Below, piece after piece: positions 2-60,103 of a stretch of DNA of 62,276 nt. The number at the start of each line of letters is the position of its first letter. Positions within the stretch are counted from its first letter, which is position 1. The notes under the pieces are model-generated. The model was not told the DNA's origin. It saw only the letters and a program-made list of their open reading frames with translations, and did no database searches. Source of the stretch: Candidatus Gastranaerophilales bacterium (GTDB lineage: Bacteria > Cyanobacteriota > Vampirovibrionia > Gastranaerophilales > JAILCC01); the NCBI GenBank assembly GCA_028696075.1, contig JAQVHS010000011.1, positions 1 through 62,276 of the forward strand, read 5' to 3'. The translations under genes were made by a program, and so were the position numbers.

Positions 2-1981
2 TCTCATCTGACAAAAGAGATGCAGAAAACTATCATTGACAAGAAAATTAAATTCTACAACATTAACGTTGAAGAATTAATTAAAAAACAGGCCGGTTTG
101 CGCGGTAAAGGTGCAAATACGGTAATGATGGTTGCTTACTTTAAGGTTTCGGGCATTATTCCTTTTGAACAGGCATATGAAGGTATGAAAGAAATGACAG
201 TCAAAACCTTTAAGAAAAAAGGTGATGATATCGTGAATATGAATTTGGCTTTAATCGATGCGGCAGTAGATGCTTGTGAAGAAGTACCTGTTCCCGAATC
301 ATTAGATGTTGTTACCTGTGCTATTGATGATGTTAAATTACTTTCTGATGATGCATCTGATTTTGCCAAGAAAATCATTGAGCCTTCAATGAGACAAAAA
401 GGTGATGATATCCCTGTTTCAGCTATGTCGGATGACGGTGTAATTCCTGTAGGCACATCTTGTTTGGAAAAACGTCGTATAGCCCCCAGAGTTCCACACT
501 GGAATGCGGAAAACTGTATTCAATGCGGTATCTGTGCTAACGCTTGTCCTCACGCCGTTATCAGAACAAAATTGATTAAACCCGAAGATTTGGTTAACGC
601 GCCTGAAACCTTCCATACAATTGATGCAAAACCCGGCGACGGCGAAAAATTCAAAGTACAAGTTTACTGCGAAGATTGTACCGGCTGCGGTGTTTGTGTT
701 GACCAATGTCCTATAAATTCAATGAAACCTCAAACACCTGCGTTAGTTTGGTCTACAGTTGAAGAAGAAGAAGCAAACTGCGAAATAGTTAATGCAAAAT
801 TCTTCGACGAGTTGCCTGATAACGTAATGGGTAAAAATACAACCAAAACCGTTAAAGGTGCAATGCTTAGAAAACCTCTGTTTGAGTTTTCAGGCGCTTG
901 CGCGGGCTGCGGAGAAACACCGTACGTTAAATTGGTATCCCAGTTGTTTGGCGAAAATATGATTGTGGCAAATGCAACAGGATGTTCATCAATTTATTCA
1001 GGCACATTCCCGACTATTCCTTATACAAAAGGTAAAGACGGCAGAGGTCCTGCTTGGGCTAACTCATTATTCGAAGACAACGCCGAGTTTGGTTTTGGTA
1101 TGAGATTAGCTGTAGAGCAAAACAGAGAAACATTGAAAGTTTATGTAGATAAAGTACTTTCCAATGAAAAAACTCCTGCTGACCTTAAAGAAGCTATAGA
1201 AGCTTCTATGGCGCTATGGGATAACTCTAAAACCGATGAGGCAATTGCTGCTCAAGATAAAGTACAGGCAGTTTTGGCTAAATACGCTGATGTTGACTGT
1301 CCTGATTTAGCCAAAGTAATGGAACTTCAAGACTACTTTACGGATAAATCGGTTTGGATTATAGGCGGTGACGGCTGGGCTAACGATATCGGATACGGCG
1401 GTATTGACCACGTATTGGCGCAAGGTAAGAACGTTAATATCCTTGTTCTTGATACAGAGGTTTACTCAAATACAGGCGGTCAAGCTTCTAAATCAACACC
1501 TACAGGTGCTGTTGCGAAGTTTGCTACCGGCGGCAAACCTACATATAAGAAAAACATGGGCTTAATGAGTATGTCTTATGGCTACGTATACGTGGCATCA
1601 GTTTCATTGGGCGCTGATAGAGGTCAAACGCTTAAAGCCTTCCAGGAAGCTGAAGCGTACGACGGACCATCAATCATATTTGCTTATGCGCCTTGTATAG
1701 CTCACGGTATTGATATGAGCAAAACCCAAACAGAACAAAAACGTGCAGTGGAAGCAGGATACTTCCCATTGTACAGATATAACCCTGCAAGCGAAAATCC
1801 TTTCACTTGGGACGCTAAAGAGCCTAAAGAAAGTTATCAGGACTTTATCAGAAGTGAAGGGCGTTATAAACAGCTTATGAAAACCAATCCTGAAGCAGCA
1901 GAAGCGCTTTATCAGCAAGCAGAAGCGGATGCGGCTAAGAGAATGGCTGTTTATAAAGCAGTAGGCGAATTGATGAAATAA
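2..1981 (+). CDS. nifJ: Pyruvate:ferredoxin (flavodoxin) oxidoreductase, C-terminal part; gene cut by the window start
   Basis: Oxidative decarboxylation of pyruvate to acetyl-CoA with electrons passed to ferredoxin or flavodoxin, in the cytoplasm. The reading frame is open back to base 2, so the ATG at 20 is internal; about 655 of the family's usual ~1170 residues are visible. Counting from the codon at 20, a first 4Fe-4S motif (CIQCGICANACP) lies near residue 165 and a second (CTGCGVCVDQCP) near 222. The CAGCGETP segment near 292 supplies ligands of the third cluster, and the thiamine-diphosphate pocket (GGDGWANDIGYGG) is near 448. The end is intact and followed by a strong terminator. This fits a strictly anaerobic metabolism and feeds the AdhE encoded further on. 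The assignment is firm; only the N-terminal half is unseen. Confidence 0.97.
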   Translation, partial: SHLTKEMQKTIIDKKIKFYNINVEELIKKQAGLRGKGANTVMMVAYFKVSGIIPFEQAYEGMKEMTVKTFKKKGDDIVNMNLALIDAAVDACEEVPVPESLDVVTCAIDDVKLLSDDASDFAKKIIEPSMRQKGDDIPVSAMSDDGVIPVGTSCLEKRRIAPRVPHWNAENCIQCGICANACPHAVIRTKLIKPEDLVNAPETFHTIDAKPGDGEKFKVQVYCEDCTGCGVCVDQCPINSMKPQTPALVWSTVEEEEANCEIVNAKFFDELPDNVMGKNTTKTVKGAMLRKPLFEFSGACAGCGETPYVKLVSQLFGENMIVANATGCSSIYSGTFPTIPYTKGKDGRGPAWANSLFEDNAEFGFGMRLAVEQNRETLKVYVDKVLSNEKTPADLKEAIEASMALWDNSKTDEAIAAQDKVQAVLAKYADVDCPDLAKVMELQDYFTDKSVWIIGGDGWANDIGYGGIDHVLAQGKNVNILVLDTEVYSNTGGQASKSTPTGAVAKFATGGKPTYKKNMGLMSMSYGYVYVASVSLGADRGQTLKAFQEAEAYDGPSIIFAYAPCIAHGIDMSKTQTEQKRAVEAGYFPLYRYNPASENPFTWDAKEPKESYQDFIRSEGRYKQLMKTNPEAAEALYQQAEADAAKRMAVYKAVGELMK

Positions 1982-2000
1982 GTAATTCAATAATCTTAGA

Positions 2001-2038
2001 AAAGGCAAGTGCTTTTTAGCACTTGCCTTTTTTGTTTT
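2001..2038 (+). terminator. Rho-independent terminator after the PFOR gene
   Basis: A perfect 12-bp stem (AAAGGCAAGTGC pairing with GCACTTGCCTTT) with a 6-base loop is followed by a T-rich tract. It lies about 20 bases after the PFOR stop codon. Confidence 0.93.
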
Positions 2039-2048
2039 AATCCGGTAT

Positions 2049-2077
2049 TTGTATTTAATTTGCAAATACTGTACAAT
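2049..2077 (+). promoter_or_regulatory. Predicted sigma-70-type promoter for the small membrane protein
   Basis: TTGTAT (2049-2054) and TACAAT (2072-2077) are separated by 17 bases. They lie just after the PFOR terminator and upstream of the ribosome binding site of the next gene. Confidence 0.5.
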
Positions 2078-2111
2078 AAATACGCTTACTAAGATAAGAA
2101 AGAGGTTGTTA

Positions 2112-2339
2112 ATGCCCCCTGTGCTTATAGGAAATGGATTTGATGTTTTAATTAGTTTACTTGTAGCGGTGCTTTTATTCTTAATCGGAATGGGGAAAAT
2201 AAAAATCGGGAATGTACCCTCAGATGTCAACACTTTCAGCAAAAAATACGGTAAATTTTTTATAGTACTCAGTATTTTTTCGTTTCTTAATGCCATAGTT
2301 TTAATAGTGAAAAAGTTTTTTAATTTCAATATTTTTTAG
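2112..2339 (+). CDS. Small hypothetical two-helix membrane protein
   Basis: A 75-residue protein of unrecognised family. A longer in-frame reading starts at 2049, but that start lies inside the predicted promoter. The ATG at 2112 has a purine-rich ribosome binding site (AAGAAAGAGG) about 7 bases upstream and is preferred. Two hydrophobic segments are visible, one near residues 8-25 (LISLLVAVLLFLIGMG) and one near residues 50-68. Between them is a short hydrophilic stretch containing SDVNTFSKKYGKF. It has its own promoter and terminates tail-to-tail with the S41 protease gene, overlapping it by 14 bases. A small inner-membrane protein is likely; no function can be assigned. Confidence 0.62.
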   Translation: MPPVLIGNGFDVLISLLVAVLLFLIGMGKIKIGNVPSDVNTFSKKYGKFFIVLSIFSFLNAIVLIVKKFFNFNIF

Positions 2340-3540
2340 CCAACTTCACAGCCGCATCAAGCTGAGGGTCTTTGCCTGTTTTTAAATCACTGATAGTATA
2401 ATCAATTTTTATATCGGGTTCGATACCCTTTTTGTTTATATCATGACCTTGCGGAGTAAGATATTTGGCTATTGTGATATTAATCCCTGTGTTAGACGGC
2501 AGCGGCGTTATTCTCTGGATTAAGCCTTTGCCGTAGGTCTTTTCGCCTATAAGTACCGCCCTTTGGTGTTCTTTGAGAGTTGCCGCCAAAATCTCACTGG
2601 CGCTTGCGCTTGAAGAATTTATAAGTACAATGACCGGTCTGTCATCTGAAATGAAAACTTTTTGGACATTTAAATCTTCAGTTGCTCCGTTTTTTTGTTT
2701 CATTGAAACTATTTTACCTGACGGTAGAAAAACACTTGCTATAAAAGAAGCGTTTTGCAATAAGCCGCCCTGATTACCCCTAAGGTCTATGATGACGGTT
2801 TTTGCATTAGCCGTGTTTTTCAGTGCGTCAACAAATTCAACTGCAACGTTGTGGCTCATAAAGGTTGAAACTTTTATATATGCAACATTGCCTATCATTT
2901 TGTGGCTGACACTTTTTATATCTATTTTTTTTCGTGTAATATTTTTTACCAACGATACATCTTTGCGCAAAAGAGTTAATTCAACCTTTGTATTTTCTTT
3001 TCCTCTTATTTTTTCTGCGACTTTTCTTACATCCATTCCGCTGACAGAAGTACTATCGACTTTTATAATTACATCATTTTTCCTTAAGTCATTCTGCAGC
3101 GCAGGGGAATTTTCTATTACATCAACAACGTTGATTTTGCCGTCCTTTGATGAAATCACGACACCTACGCCGGTAATACTGGAATCTATGTTTTCATTTT
3201 GGTCTTCATATTCTTCTTTTGTTAAAAACCTTGTATAAGGGTCATCAAGGCTCTCTACCATTGTATCTATTGCAACATAGGCATCTTGTATATTGTTGAT
3301 TTTATCAAGATAGCGGGTTCTCCAGTAGTTCCAGTCCTGTTTATCAATATTTGTACCGTAAGACTGTTCCTTTATTTCAACCCAGCTTTTTAAAAACAGA
3401 TATTTTGCACAAGCAGGTTCTGATTTTTGCTCACACAAAAATTTATTTCTAGGAACTTCGACATCAAAAGAAGTATTGCAGCCTGATAAAAATATTACAA
3501 ATGATAATAAGCAAATATAAATCGGAAGATTTTTTTTCAT
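2326..3540 (-). CDS. ctpA: C-terminal processing peptidase (S41 family), lipoprotein
   Basis: Serine protease of the CtpA/Prc family that cleaves C-terminal tails of envelope proteins. The 404-residue product begins with a lipoprotein signal (LLSFVIFLSGC, lipid-carrying Cys21), so it should be membrane-anchored on the outside of the inner membrane or in the outer membrane. A PDZ domain spans about 115-195. The peptidase core carries SASASE at 311-316, where Ser313 is the expected nucleophile, and GEKTYGKG at 332-339 with Lys338 as the expected base. This Ser-to-Lys spacing of 25 matches E. coli Prc. The gene follows map with a 2-base gap, so both are probably co-transcribed. The family call is strong; the substrate is unknown. 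Confidence 0.93.
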   Translation of the reverse strand: MKKNLPIYICLLSFVIFLSGCNTSFDVEVPRNKFLCEQKSEPACAKYLFLKSWVEIKEQSYGTNIDKQDWNYWRTRYLDKINNIQDAYVAIDTMVESLDDPYTRFLTKEEYEDQNENIDSSITGVGVVISSKDGKINVVDVIENSPALQNDLRKNDVIIKVDSTSVSGMDVRKVAEKIRGKENTKVELTLLRKDVSLVKNITRKKIDIKSVSHKMIGNVAYIKVSTFMSHNVAVEFVDALKNTANAKTVIIDLRGNQGGLLQNASFIASVFLPSGKIVSMKQKNGATEDLNVQKVFISDDRPVIVLINSSSASASEILAATLKEHQRAVLIGEKTYGKGLIQRITPLPSNTGINITIAKYLTPQGHDINKKGIEPDIKIDYTISDLKTGKDPQLDAAVKLAKKY

Positions 3541-3542
3541 AG

Positions 3543-4295
3543 TTAATCTCGTTTAGTTAAAATTAATGGCCCGTTATCTGTAATAGCAACAGTGTGTTCA
3601 AAATGGGCGGAAGGTTTTTTGTCATTTGTTACGACTGTCCAGCCGTCAGCCAATGTGTGAACATCATCGCAGCCTAAATTAAGCATTGGTTCTATAGCTA
3701 TTACCATCCCTGTTTTGAGCAACGGTCCTTTGTTTCCTGTTCTATAGTTGAATAAAAACGGGTCTTCATGCATTTTAGCGCCTACGCCGTGTCCGCCGTA
3801 TTGTCTTACAATACCAAGCTTATATGATAAAGCAACATCTTCTATCGCTCCTGAAACATCTTCAAGATAATTTCCTGCAGACATTTTTTCAATACCTGCA
3901 AAAAGCGCTTCATTGGTCGCTTTTAATAGTGTTTTTATTTCCTCTGATACGCTGCCTACTGCATGGGTTCTTGCGCTGTCGCCAACCATTCCTCTGAATG
4001 TCGCACCGATATCAACGCTGATTATATCGCCGTCTTTTAAAATAATATCCTTAGACGGGATACCGTGAACGACCTGTTCGTTTACAGAAGCACAAATTGA
4101 AGCGGGAAAGCCGTTATAGCCCTTAAAAGTTGGGAAAGCTTTGTTTCGTGTAACCACGTTGTAGGCAATTTCATCAAGCTCCCATGTGGAAACTCCCGGT
4201 TTTATTCCAGCGGCAATTTCGTCATGAGCCTCTGCTACGATGGCTCCTGCCTGCTGCATTAATTGTAGCTGATATCTTGATTTTCTGTGTATCAT
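3543..4295 (-). CDS. map: Methionine aminopeptidase, type I
   Basis: Removes the initiator methionine from new proteins in the cytoplasm. At 250 residues it is the short bacterial type I form without an N-terminal zinc finger. The five metal ligands of the family are visible in order: Asp in SVDIGA, Asp in GDSARTHAVG, His in YGGHGVG, Glu in AIEPML and Glu in FEHTVAI. The gene lies 2 bases upstream of the S41 protease gene on the same strand and probably forms a two-gene operon with it. It is not in the more usual ribosomal-protein setting (secY-adk-map-infA). Confidence 0.96.
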   Translation of the reverse strand: MIHRKSRYQLQLMQQAGAIVAEAHDEIAAGIKPGVSTWELDEIAYNVVTRNKAFPTFKGYNGFPASICASVNEQVVHGIPSKDIILKDGDIISVDIGATFRGMVGDSARTHAVGSVSEEIKTLLKATNEALFAGIEKMSAGNYLEDVSGAIEDVALSYKLGIVRQYGGHGVGAKMHEDPFLFNYRTGNKGPLLKTGMVIAIEPMLNLGCDDVHTLADGWTVVTNDKKPSAHFEHTVAITDNGPLILTKRD

Positions 4296-49890: not shown

Positions 49891-50031
49891 TTTCTTGTCT
49901 TTCTTTGCTCTCTTACTATAATAAAGTCATTAGTATATACAAAATTGCTATTTAGTATATACTATATTAAGTTTTATTAAGAAAATAAAGCCTTGAAAAA
50001 AAATAATCAGCATTGATAATAGATAAAGTAC

Positions 50032-50105
50032 GGCACAGTAGCTCAGATGGTTAGAGCGCACGGCTCATACCCGTGAGGTCGACAGTTCGATTCTGTCCTG
50101 TGCTA
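50032..50105 (+). tRNA. tRNA-Met (CAU anticodon), elongator type
   Basis: A 74-base cloverleaf without an encoded CCA. The acceptor stem is GGCACAG/CTGTGCT (first pair G-U), the D arm starts GCTCAGATGGTTAGAGC, and the anticodon stem CACGG/CCGTG carries loop CTCATAC with CAT at 50066-50068. The variable loop is AGGTC, and the T arm GACAG/CTGTC has loop TTCGATT. The paired first acceptor base argues against an initiator tRNA. A tRNA-Ile2 with modified CAU is less likely but cannot be excluded by sequence alone. Its 3' end is the repeated core of the array that follows. Confidence 0.94.
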
Positions 50106-50500
50106 TTTTTGTTAGGTTCGACAGTTCCGCGGATGTGATTTTTTACGCACGTTGTGCTTAAAAATCTACATCTCCGACCCGTCAAACTACGGCTCATAAA
50201 TTCACCTTGTTTGTCGTGCGATTCTGTCCTGTGCTATTTTTGTTGGGTTCGACAGTTCCGCGGATGTGATTTTTCACGCACGTTGTGCTTAAAAATCTAC
50301 ATCTCCGACCCGTCAAACTACGGCTCATAAATTCACCTTGTTTGTCGTGCGATTCTGTCCTGTGCTATTTTTGTTAGGTTCGACAGTTCCGCGGATGTGA
50401 TTTTTTACGCACGTTGTGCTTAAAAATCTACATCTCCGACCCGTCAAACTACGGCTCATAAATTCGCCTTGTTTGTCGTGCGATTCTGTCCTGTGCTATT
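50088..50500 (+). repeat. Tandem array of three 131-bp units anchored on the tRNA-Met 3' end
   Basis: The tRNA 3' end CGATTCTGTCCTGTGCTATT occurs at 50088, 50219, 50350 and 50481, giving an exact 131-bp period and three complete units. Units differ by only a few substitutions (for example GTTAGG versus GTTGGG, TTTTTTAC versus TTTTTCAC, ATTCACC versus ATTCGCC). Each unit begins with a copy of the tRNA T-arm text (GGTTCGACAGTTC, one base longer than in the tRNA). It then holds a long stem-loop of about 45 bases (50131-50175, 50262-50306, 50393-50437). An anticodon-arm-like ACGGCTCATA follows, and the unit ends with the true tRNA 3' end. No coding frame was recognised. The layout resembles repeated integration or duplication at a tRNA gene. 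Confidence 0.93.
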
Positions 50501-59677: not shown

Positions 59678-60103
59678 ATGAATTTTTTAGACAAAATTTT
59701 GGGGTTAACAGAAGGGTTTTTAGGAGGAACAAAGGCTCTTGTTGATAAAATTTCCAATCAAAAAATGGAAACAACGGGTTCAATATGGTCTGAAGACGAA
59801 ATGAAGTTCTATGAACACAGGGCTGCGGAAGCCGCCCAAAAACAAGCCGACTTAACAACTATACCGGGTACGCCCGAAGATCAAGGTTCTGAAGACGAAA
59901 TAAAGTTCTATGAACACAGGGCTGCGGAAGCCGCCCAAAAACAAGCCGATTTAACAACTATACCGGGTATGCCCGAAGATCAAGTTTCCGAAGACGAAAT
60001 AAAGTTCTATGAACACAGGGCTGCGGAAGCCGCCCAAAAACAAACCGATTTAACAACTATACAGGGTATGCCCGAAGATAAAACGGATTTGAATAAGGAT
60101 TAA
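59678..60103 (+). CDS. Protein with three near-identical 33-residue repeats
   Basis: A 141-residue protein, unrecognised. The first ~37 residues (MNFLDKILGLTEGFLGGTKA, then LVDKISNQKMETTGSIW) form an amphipathic lead. Three 33-residue repeats follow with only a few changes: each begins SEDE(M/I)KFYEHRAAEAAQKQ, continues with (A/T)DLTTI and ends GxPED. The repeats are 99 bp each and almost identical in DNA, so they duplicated recently. The protein is acidic and soluble. It is followed 7 bases later, tail-to-tail, by an HNH gene. A helical binding repeat is likely; repeat number may vary between strains. Confidence 0.75.
   Translation: MNFLDKILGLTEGFLGGTKALVDKISNQKMETTGSIWSEDEMKFYEHRAAEAAQKQADLTTIPGTPEDQGSEDEIKFYEHRAAEAAQKQADLTTIPGMPEDQVSEDEIKFYEHRAAEAAQKQTDLTTIQGMPEDKTDLNKD
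59789..60085 (+). repeat. Three tandem 99-bp in-frame coding repeats
   Basis: Units start at 59789, 59888 and 59987. Differences are limited to a handful of bases, mostly third-position or single amino acid changes, indicating recent expansion or homogenisation. Confidence 0.92.

Follow-up and report, generated by a model that had tools for sequence, protein, structure and literature searches.

A tandem array of interrupted tRNA copies behind a tRNA-Met gene of a Gastranaerophilales bacterium, and related arrays at other tRNA genes

The 62-kb contig analysed here, referred to below as the window, comes from a 1.84-Mb genome (99.6% complete) of a Gastranaerophilales-type gut bacterium. Directly behind its tRNA-Met gene lies a tandem array of 131-bp units that contain pieces of this tRNA. 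What is this array, and how could it have arisen? Mobile DNA of bacteria often inserts at tRNA genes, yet repeats built from the tRNA itself are known to us only as isolated curiosities, such as those at tyrT of Escherichia coli. The analysis indicated that each unit is a tRNA fragment interrupted by a structured hairpin module, here called module X, which is shared with other loci and genomes. We read the array as a tRNA-seeded satellite, in which a hairpin module would have lodged in a tRNA loop in an event that also duplicated the end of the local tRNA, and the product would then have been amplified in tandem; the chance that this reading is correct appears to be about even.

The tRNA-Met (CAT) gene was called once, at positions 50032–50105, by ARAGORN and Rfam. 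It is followed on its 3′ side by three 131-bp units and then by a final 20-bp tRNA 3′ end. Tandem Repeats Finder delimits the array at 50088–50500, with a period of 131 bp, 3.2 copies, 98% matches and zero indels, and such identity over 413 bp is far beyond chance. The tRNA 3′ end, CGATTCTGTCCTGTGCTATT, occurs four times, at 50088 (within the tRNA), 50219, 50350 and 50481, so that three occurrences are outside the tRNA, and the T-arm piece TCGACAGTTC is present in all three units. These results bear out the first-pass annotation, which had described a tRNA-Met followed by tandem 131-bp units, its 3′ end repeated four times at an exact 131-bp step and a T-arm-like piece in each unit. In the direction of the tRNA, a unit consists of the T-arm 5′ half up to C56 (TCGACAGTTC), the 91-bp module X, the tRNA part from R57 to the 3′ end, and a T run. 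No inverted arm copy is present in the window array, unlike in many other arrays. The features of the locus, all on the plus strand, are as follows:

49993–50020, plus strand: promoter-like site TTGAAA-16-GATAAT (consensus scan, 10/12)
50032–50105, plus strand: intact tRNA-Met (CAT) (ARAGORN; Rfam tRNA, 68.3 bits)
50118–50127, plus strand: unit 1, copied T-arm 5′ half up to C56 (TCGACAGTTC), 10 nt identical to the local tRNA
50128–50218, plus strand: unit 1, module X with a first hairpin and the conserved core hairpin 50177–50219 (core model 68.4 bits; compensatory changes)
50219–50238, plus strand: unit 1, 3′ portion of the tRNA, beginning in the T-loop (CGATTCTGTCCTGTGCTATT) and the same as in the intact gene
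50249–50258, plus strand: unit 2, copy of the T-arm 5′ half, matching the local tRNA
50259–50349, plus strand: unit 2, module X (core 50308–50350; core model 68.4 bits)
50350–50369, plus strand: unit 2, tRNA 3′ part, matching the tRNA 3′ end
50380–50389, plus strand: unit 3, copy of the T-arm 5′ half, matching the local tRNA
50390–50480, plus strand: unit 3, module X (core 50439–50481; core model 72.2 bits)
50481–50500, plus strand: unit 3, last tRNA 3′ part and end of the array (Tandem Repeats Finder), matching the tRNA 3′ end

The same units were found in independent assemblies of many species, which argues against an assembly artefact. The genomes compared are metagenome-assembled genomes (MAGs); copy numbers are those of the assemblies, in which some arrays are interrupted by N gaps or located at contig ends (C12, C16). 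The promoter-like site upstream of tRNA-Met matches the consensus at 10 of 12 positions, which by itself is no evidence of function, and a scan of the region between tRNA-Met and the array found no intrinsic terminator-like site. The minus strand of each unit contains an open reading frame (ORF) of about 44 codons, whose ends overlap from unit to unit. It was rejected as a gene, since its ATG is absent in some relatives (in one case read by eye, for example). Thus, the earlier statement that the units have no coding frame is inaccurate as to the presence of a short ORF, which is treated here as incidental. A CRISPR array was also rejected: complete 131-bp units are 98% identical, and there is no pattern of a constant repeat with differing spacers.

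The core of module X has the form GTCAAACTACG-(variable stem, usually self-complementary)-CTTGTTTGTCG and is an imperfect palindrome with two similar arms. The piece ACGGCTCATA, previously described as anticodon-arm-like, does not derive from a tRNA: ACTACGGYTCA belongs to the X core and recurs in units at tRNA-Pro, -Asp and -Leu genes. In an alignment of 26 X copies, 98.9% of the cells pair in the structure, compared with 37–53% when the structure is slid along the alignment, and 17 compensatory cells were counted versus 3.5 in shuffles; the number of pair types in this alignment is not above that of shuffles. Folding of aligned units, which had been suggested as a check, therefore shows a conserved structure. 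The units also fold better than their shuffles on the tRNA strand (z from −3.1 to −4.0), and the window unit has a z of −2.7 on the other strand. Three core cells are C–A on the tRNA strand and would be G–U on the other strand; either strand, as RNA or DNA, could thus be the one that folds.

In the genome under study, X is also located beside tRNA-Asp (two 228-bp units) and tRNA-Leu (one unit); its variants are present at two tRNA-Ser genes, and it is degenerate at tRNA-Gln. Other genomes carry X beside tRNA-Pro (three isoacceptors) and tRNA-Met, and on the 5′ side of tRNA-Gln. The proposal to look for the unit behind other tRNA genes and in related MAGs was thus productive. Far from being absent in relatives, the module matches the core model in 40 of the 286 genomes of the order, belonging to 15 of 50 genera, and almost all matches in the named collections are Candidatus Gastranaerophilales MAGs. 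Of the 386 genomes examined across the phylum, 18 contain the exact outer pattern, and each of these belongs to the order; the reversed control gave 0 matches. By this exact-pattern scan, X was found only in the order within the phylum sample. One pattern match in Chitinophagaceae was treated as chance, since the remainder of the module is missing there. A phage origin of X was rejected, as the exact core pattern has no match in IMG/VR.

Copies of X are not restricted to tRNA flanks. One genome of the order contains 21 X-core copies over many contigs, most of which are flanked by other hairpin repeats and not by tRNA pieces; therefore, the module can disperse. Some rabbit-gut MAGs likewise contain X copies with no tRNA nearby. 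As a separate observation, two X-type units near a tRNA-Ser(TGA) gene (locus L109, positions 1060–3790, contig C2) bracket about 2.6 kb with an ATPase-like gene; the arrangement looks as though the array had provided the ends of a larger element.

The position of the insert and the origin of the tRNA parts were analysed in 27 units adjoining tRNA-Met, -Pro, -Asp and -Leu genes, each of which was compared with the local tRNA and with the other unit-bearing tRNAs. The tRNA-derived runs match the local tRNA over a mean of 8.7 and 17.0 nt, versus 4.9 and 5.5 nt for the other unit-bearing tRNAs. In nearly all of the 27 units, the 3′ tRNA part begins at R57, 5–6 nt past the core. The junction of X with the tRNA is nearly always 56/57, and X itself is common to different tRNA loci. 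Since the tRNA parts are local but X is shared, the module and the tRNA parts have different histories. The module is common property, and the tRNA parts either arise at the locus itself or are kept in agreement with the neighbouring gene. The mean likeness of X is 0.83 at the same tRNA across genomes, 0.76 between tRNAs of one genome and 0.69 where neither is shared, these values being based on small samples.

The arrangement is not peculiar to tRNA-Met. A scan for partial copies of at least 12 nt within 700 bp of the 35 tRNA genes found in this genome revealed local copies at 17 of them, upstream, downstream or on both sides, whereas the number expected by chance, estimated from non-local tRNAs of the same genome, is 0.38. 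In five other genomes, self-copies were found at 0/24, 1/23, 1/26, 2/24 and 1/27 tRNA genes; only part of the tRNAs of each genome was sampled in this comparison, and the known tRNA-Pro arrays of one genome are outside the sample. In a genome of the same family but of another genus, 7 of 16 tRNAs have copies at an 11-nt criterion.

Upstream arrays (tRNA-Phe with five copies; Ala, Arg-tct, Arg-ccg, Gly and others) are composed of a leader, tRNA nucleotides from 1 to 11–21, a hairpin module and an inverted or direct remainder of the D-arm. At tRNA-Phe, Ala(ggc), Arg(tct), Arg(ccg) and Gly(tcc), they mostly have steps of about 84–103 bp and are placed between the intact tRNA and a promoter that looks native. 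The first upstream copy at Gly-tcc and Arg-tct comes, as read by eye, after a native-looking promoter; therefore, the leader of the pre-tRNA would contain such arrays. In downstream arrays (Lys, Phe, Gly, Pro-ggg, Arg-tct, Met), the order is a trailer (which mostly includes a terminator), an inverted T-arm piece, a module and the tRNA 3′ end. Some arrays end part-way through a unit. In the closely read cases, a stem closes the module, formed either by both arm halves or by one half and its inverted copy. Other modules are also common to different tRNAs and genera; for example, CTCTGCCGA-(stem)-GAGAG is found in the D-loops of several tRNAs in three genomes.

Several further repeats can be noted. 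At a tRNA-Met gene of another genome, a module of the CTCTGCCGA type (module F) is located in reversed orientation in the anticodon loop of partial tRNA-Met copies, which form 223-bp units. Mosaic tandem arrays of a 138-bp palindromic module (GCGGATTTGCGG...AAATCCAAGACA) were seen at four loci on three contigs, at a distance from tRNAs; twice the module is placed right behind a terminator-like hairpin, and it is also present in the flanks of tRNA-Leu, -His and -Met. The window itself contains another tandem repeat, at 59789–60079, with a period of 99 bp, 2.9 copies and 96% matches; the period is a multiple of three, and this repeat is possibly coding.

In the proposed scenario of a tRNA-seeded satellite, the small structured module X would have separated C56 from R57 in the T-loop of an incomplete copy of the local tRNA, with the intact tRNA kept upstream. 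The lodging event would also have duplicated the end of the local tRNA. The copied stretch would begin here near nucleotide 47 and run to just beyond the 3′ end, and elsewhere to beyond the terminator, and the product would be an intact gene followed by an interrupted tRNA fragment. Slippage or unequal recombination would then have produced tandem copies of the compound unit, made up of the T-arm 5′ half, X, the tRNA 3′ end and a trailer; the near-identical 131-bp steps and the arrays that stop in mid-unit fit tandem amplification. With several module families, the same process would have affected roughly half the tRNA genes in this genome, in D-loops in the 5′ flanks and in T-loops in the 3′ flanks. 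The build of the units, their nearly invariable junction, the local source of the tRNA parts, the occurrence of modules at different tRNA loci and in different genomes, the conserved structure and the distribution over the genome are seen directly in the sequences. From these we infer that the modules are or were mobile, that their insertion was coupled to duplication, and that the amplification proceeded by ordinary recombination. Two suggestions of the first-pass annotation, a chain of minimal non-autonomous elements and a satellite seeded on a tRNA gene, were both partly right: a shared structured module is placed at a fixed point (C56/R57) of a partial local tRNA copy, and the compound unit of tRNA pieces and X would then have multiplied in tandem.

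Several observations weigh against this scenario. Y1 transposase (PF01797) was not found in this genome and was present in only one of the 16 genomes scanned; reverse transcriptase (RVT_1, PF00078) was not detected in this genome; and its only two tyrosine recombinases (PF00589) are of Xer size and are encoded outside the array. No mobilising agent tied to the module was found, the serine recombinase, DDE and IS110 families not having been searched. No empty site was seen, so the coupling of insertion and duplication was not directly observed, and the inverted arm copies in some of the upstream units call for more than insertion. In addition, the higher likeness of X at the same tRNA across genomes than within one genome indicates that many insertions probably date far back and that some spreading or homogenisation took place within lineages, as far as the sequences suggest. 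A group II intron or another retroelement was rejected as the source, as PF00078 was not detected in the genome.

The main rival explanation of how the duplication arises is template switching. Replication forks would stall at tRNA genes and hairpin arms would provoke switching, which would produce partial copies and inverted pieces, while older modules would spread by gene conversion with no insertion enzyme. This explains the inverted D-arm and T-arm copies that many arrays hold beside direct ones, and it agrees with the stem closure of the module in the closely read cases and with the lack of detectable Y1 transposase and reverse transcriptase genes. However, the module cores are conserved over 15 genera and also away from tRNAs, the nearly fixed C56/R57 junction asks more than slippage, and the window array is devoid of the inverted copy; we consider template switching an unlikely explanation. 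Remnants of site-specific integration seem rather improbable. Here, a tyrosine integrase would join small circles or now-deleted islands at the T-loop, which would regenerate the tRNA and displace a 3′ fragment; the X core would be the recombinase site, and integration repeated several times would build the chain. The palindromic core with its two similar arms and the almost invariable 56/57 junction are what could be expected in this case, T-loops do serve as attB sites (PMC1762012), and an intact tRNA with a displaced 3′ fragment is the mark of tRNA-integrated islands (PMC4383910). In these units, however, the fragment is interrupted by X, and at several different tRNAs both arms copy the local tRNA, so they cannot have come in on a circle. 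The D-loop arrays 5′ of tRNAs share the same plan, the genome has just the two Xer-size recombinases, and the 131-bp non-coding unit contains no integrase gene. The simple integrase scar considered earlier fails for the same reasons, and no autonomous partner was found.

Functional small RNAs, cut from the tRNA transcript like the rtT RNA of E. coli and kept by selection, would account for the folding of the units on the tRNA strand (z of −3 to −4), the compensatory changes and the promoter-like site with no intrinsic terminator found between tRNA and array. Yet the module is patchy (40/286 genomes), its families differ from tRNA to tRNA, at other tRNAs the array is placed behind a terminator-like hairpin, and Rfam gives no match; such a role is improbable. 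The earlier idea of an array of small structured RNAs is thus upheld as regards the conserved structure and no further. Partial tRNA copies might also be decoys, offering integrases attachment sites that draw them off the genuine tRNA genes, given that the units adjoin the gene and copy the arms used by integrases. This is a purely inferential idea, and the interrupted loop should make a decoy weaker, which renders it very improbable.

Because one design recurs at so many tRNAs, and because the modules are shared and the point of insertion hardly varies, it becomes possible to test how such arrays originate. If they are transcribed, pre-tRNA leaders and trailers would gain structured RNA from them, with possible consequences for the processing of tRNAs. 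One array or more is located at contig ends, so that such arrays may also break assemblies of these gut bacteria.

A search of the literature on Gastranaerophilales or Melainabacteria found no report of tRNA repeats, and for palindromic elements in tRNA genes, only works on organelle or unrelated genomes were found. Among the known systems, islands of tyrosine integrases regenerate the tRNA and displace its 3′ fragment (PMC4383910), and mycophage Ms6 can use the T-loop as attB (PMC1762012). The window array resembles such islands (Islander type) in the intact tRNA followed by a displaced 3′ fragment and in the break in the T-loop. It differs from them in that the fragment is interrupted at 56/57, both arms are local, the array contains neither integrase nor cargo, and D-loops are also used.

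REP/REPIN sequences and BIMEs are short hairpin modules that do not code for protein and occur both dispersed and as mosaic tandem arrays, and the modules described here share these features. Unlike REP/REPIN, they inhabit tRNA loops, and no RAYT-type Y1 transposase was detected in the genome, although past loss is possible. The attC sites of integrons are imperfect palindromes with a bulged base and a variable terminal stem, have RYYYAAC / GTTRRRY boxes and are found in tandem cassettes. X is similar to them in the imperfect palindrome, the bulged base, the variable terminal stem and the cassette-like tandem arrays. Identity with attC was nevertheless rejected: the X boxes are GTCAAAC / GTTTGTC, of which GTTTGTC misfits, and the arrays contain no gene cassettes. 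The candidates for an integron integrase are the two PF00589 genes, which are of Xer size.

The closest likeness in layout is with the tyrT/tyrV locus of E. coli K-12 (NC_000913.3, 1286.7–1287.3 kb), which contains 3.1 repeats of 178 bp, each ending in nucleotides 67–85 of tRNA-Tyr. When re-read, the tyrT units were found to consist of the T-arm 5′ half AAGGTTCGA, a hairpin-rich stretch, AATCC...CCA and the inverted T-arm piece GGGGAAGGAT. To our knowledge, the T-arm 5′ half and the inverted T-arm piece around the insert of the tyrT/rtT units have no earlier description. Both systems have tandem units directly 3′ of the tRNA, a tRNA 3′ part that starts inside the T-loop, and an insert in this loop. 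The rtT RNA of E. coli is released from the transcript (PMC4986893), and the tyrT record annotates a protamine-like ORF (tpr) inside the unit. The module sequences are unrelated, a single E. coli locus was examined against many tRNAs here, and 5′ arrays occur here. The Rfam RtT covariance model had no match in the window: at E ≤ 10, only the tRNA and one sub-threshold antisense hit over it were obtained, and no Rfam family besides the tRNA is above the threshold. By sequence comparison, the window array is thus tyrT-like in layout but not a member of RtT. It is possible, albeit doubtful, that all these arrays represent a new class of hairpin modules that enter the D-, anticodon- and T-loops, duplicate the local tRNA end and leave the gene intact; in that case, tyrT/rtT of E. 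coli would be an isolated member of this class, and about half of the tRNA flanks in the present lineage would have been remodelled by it.
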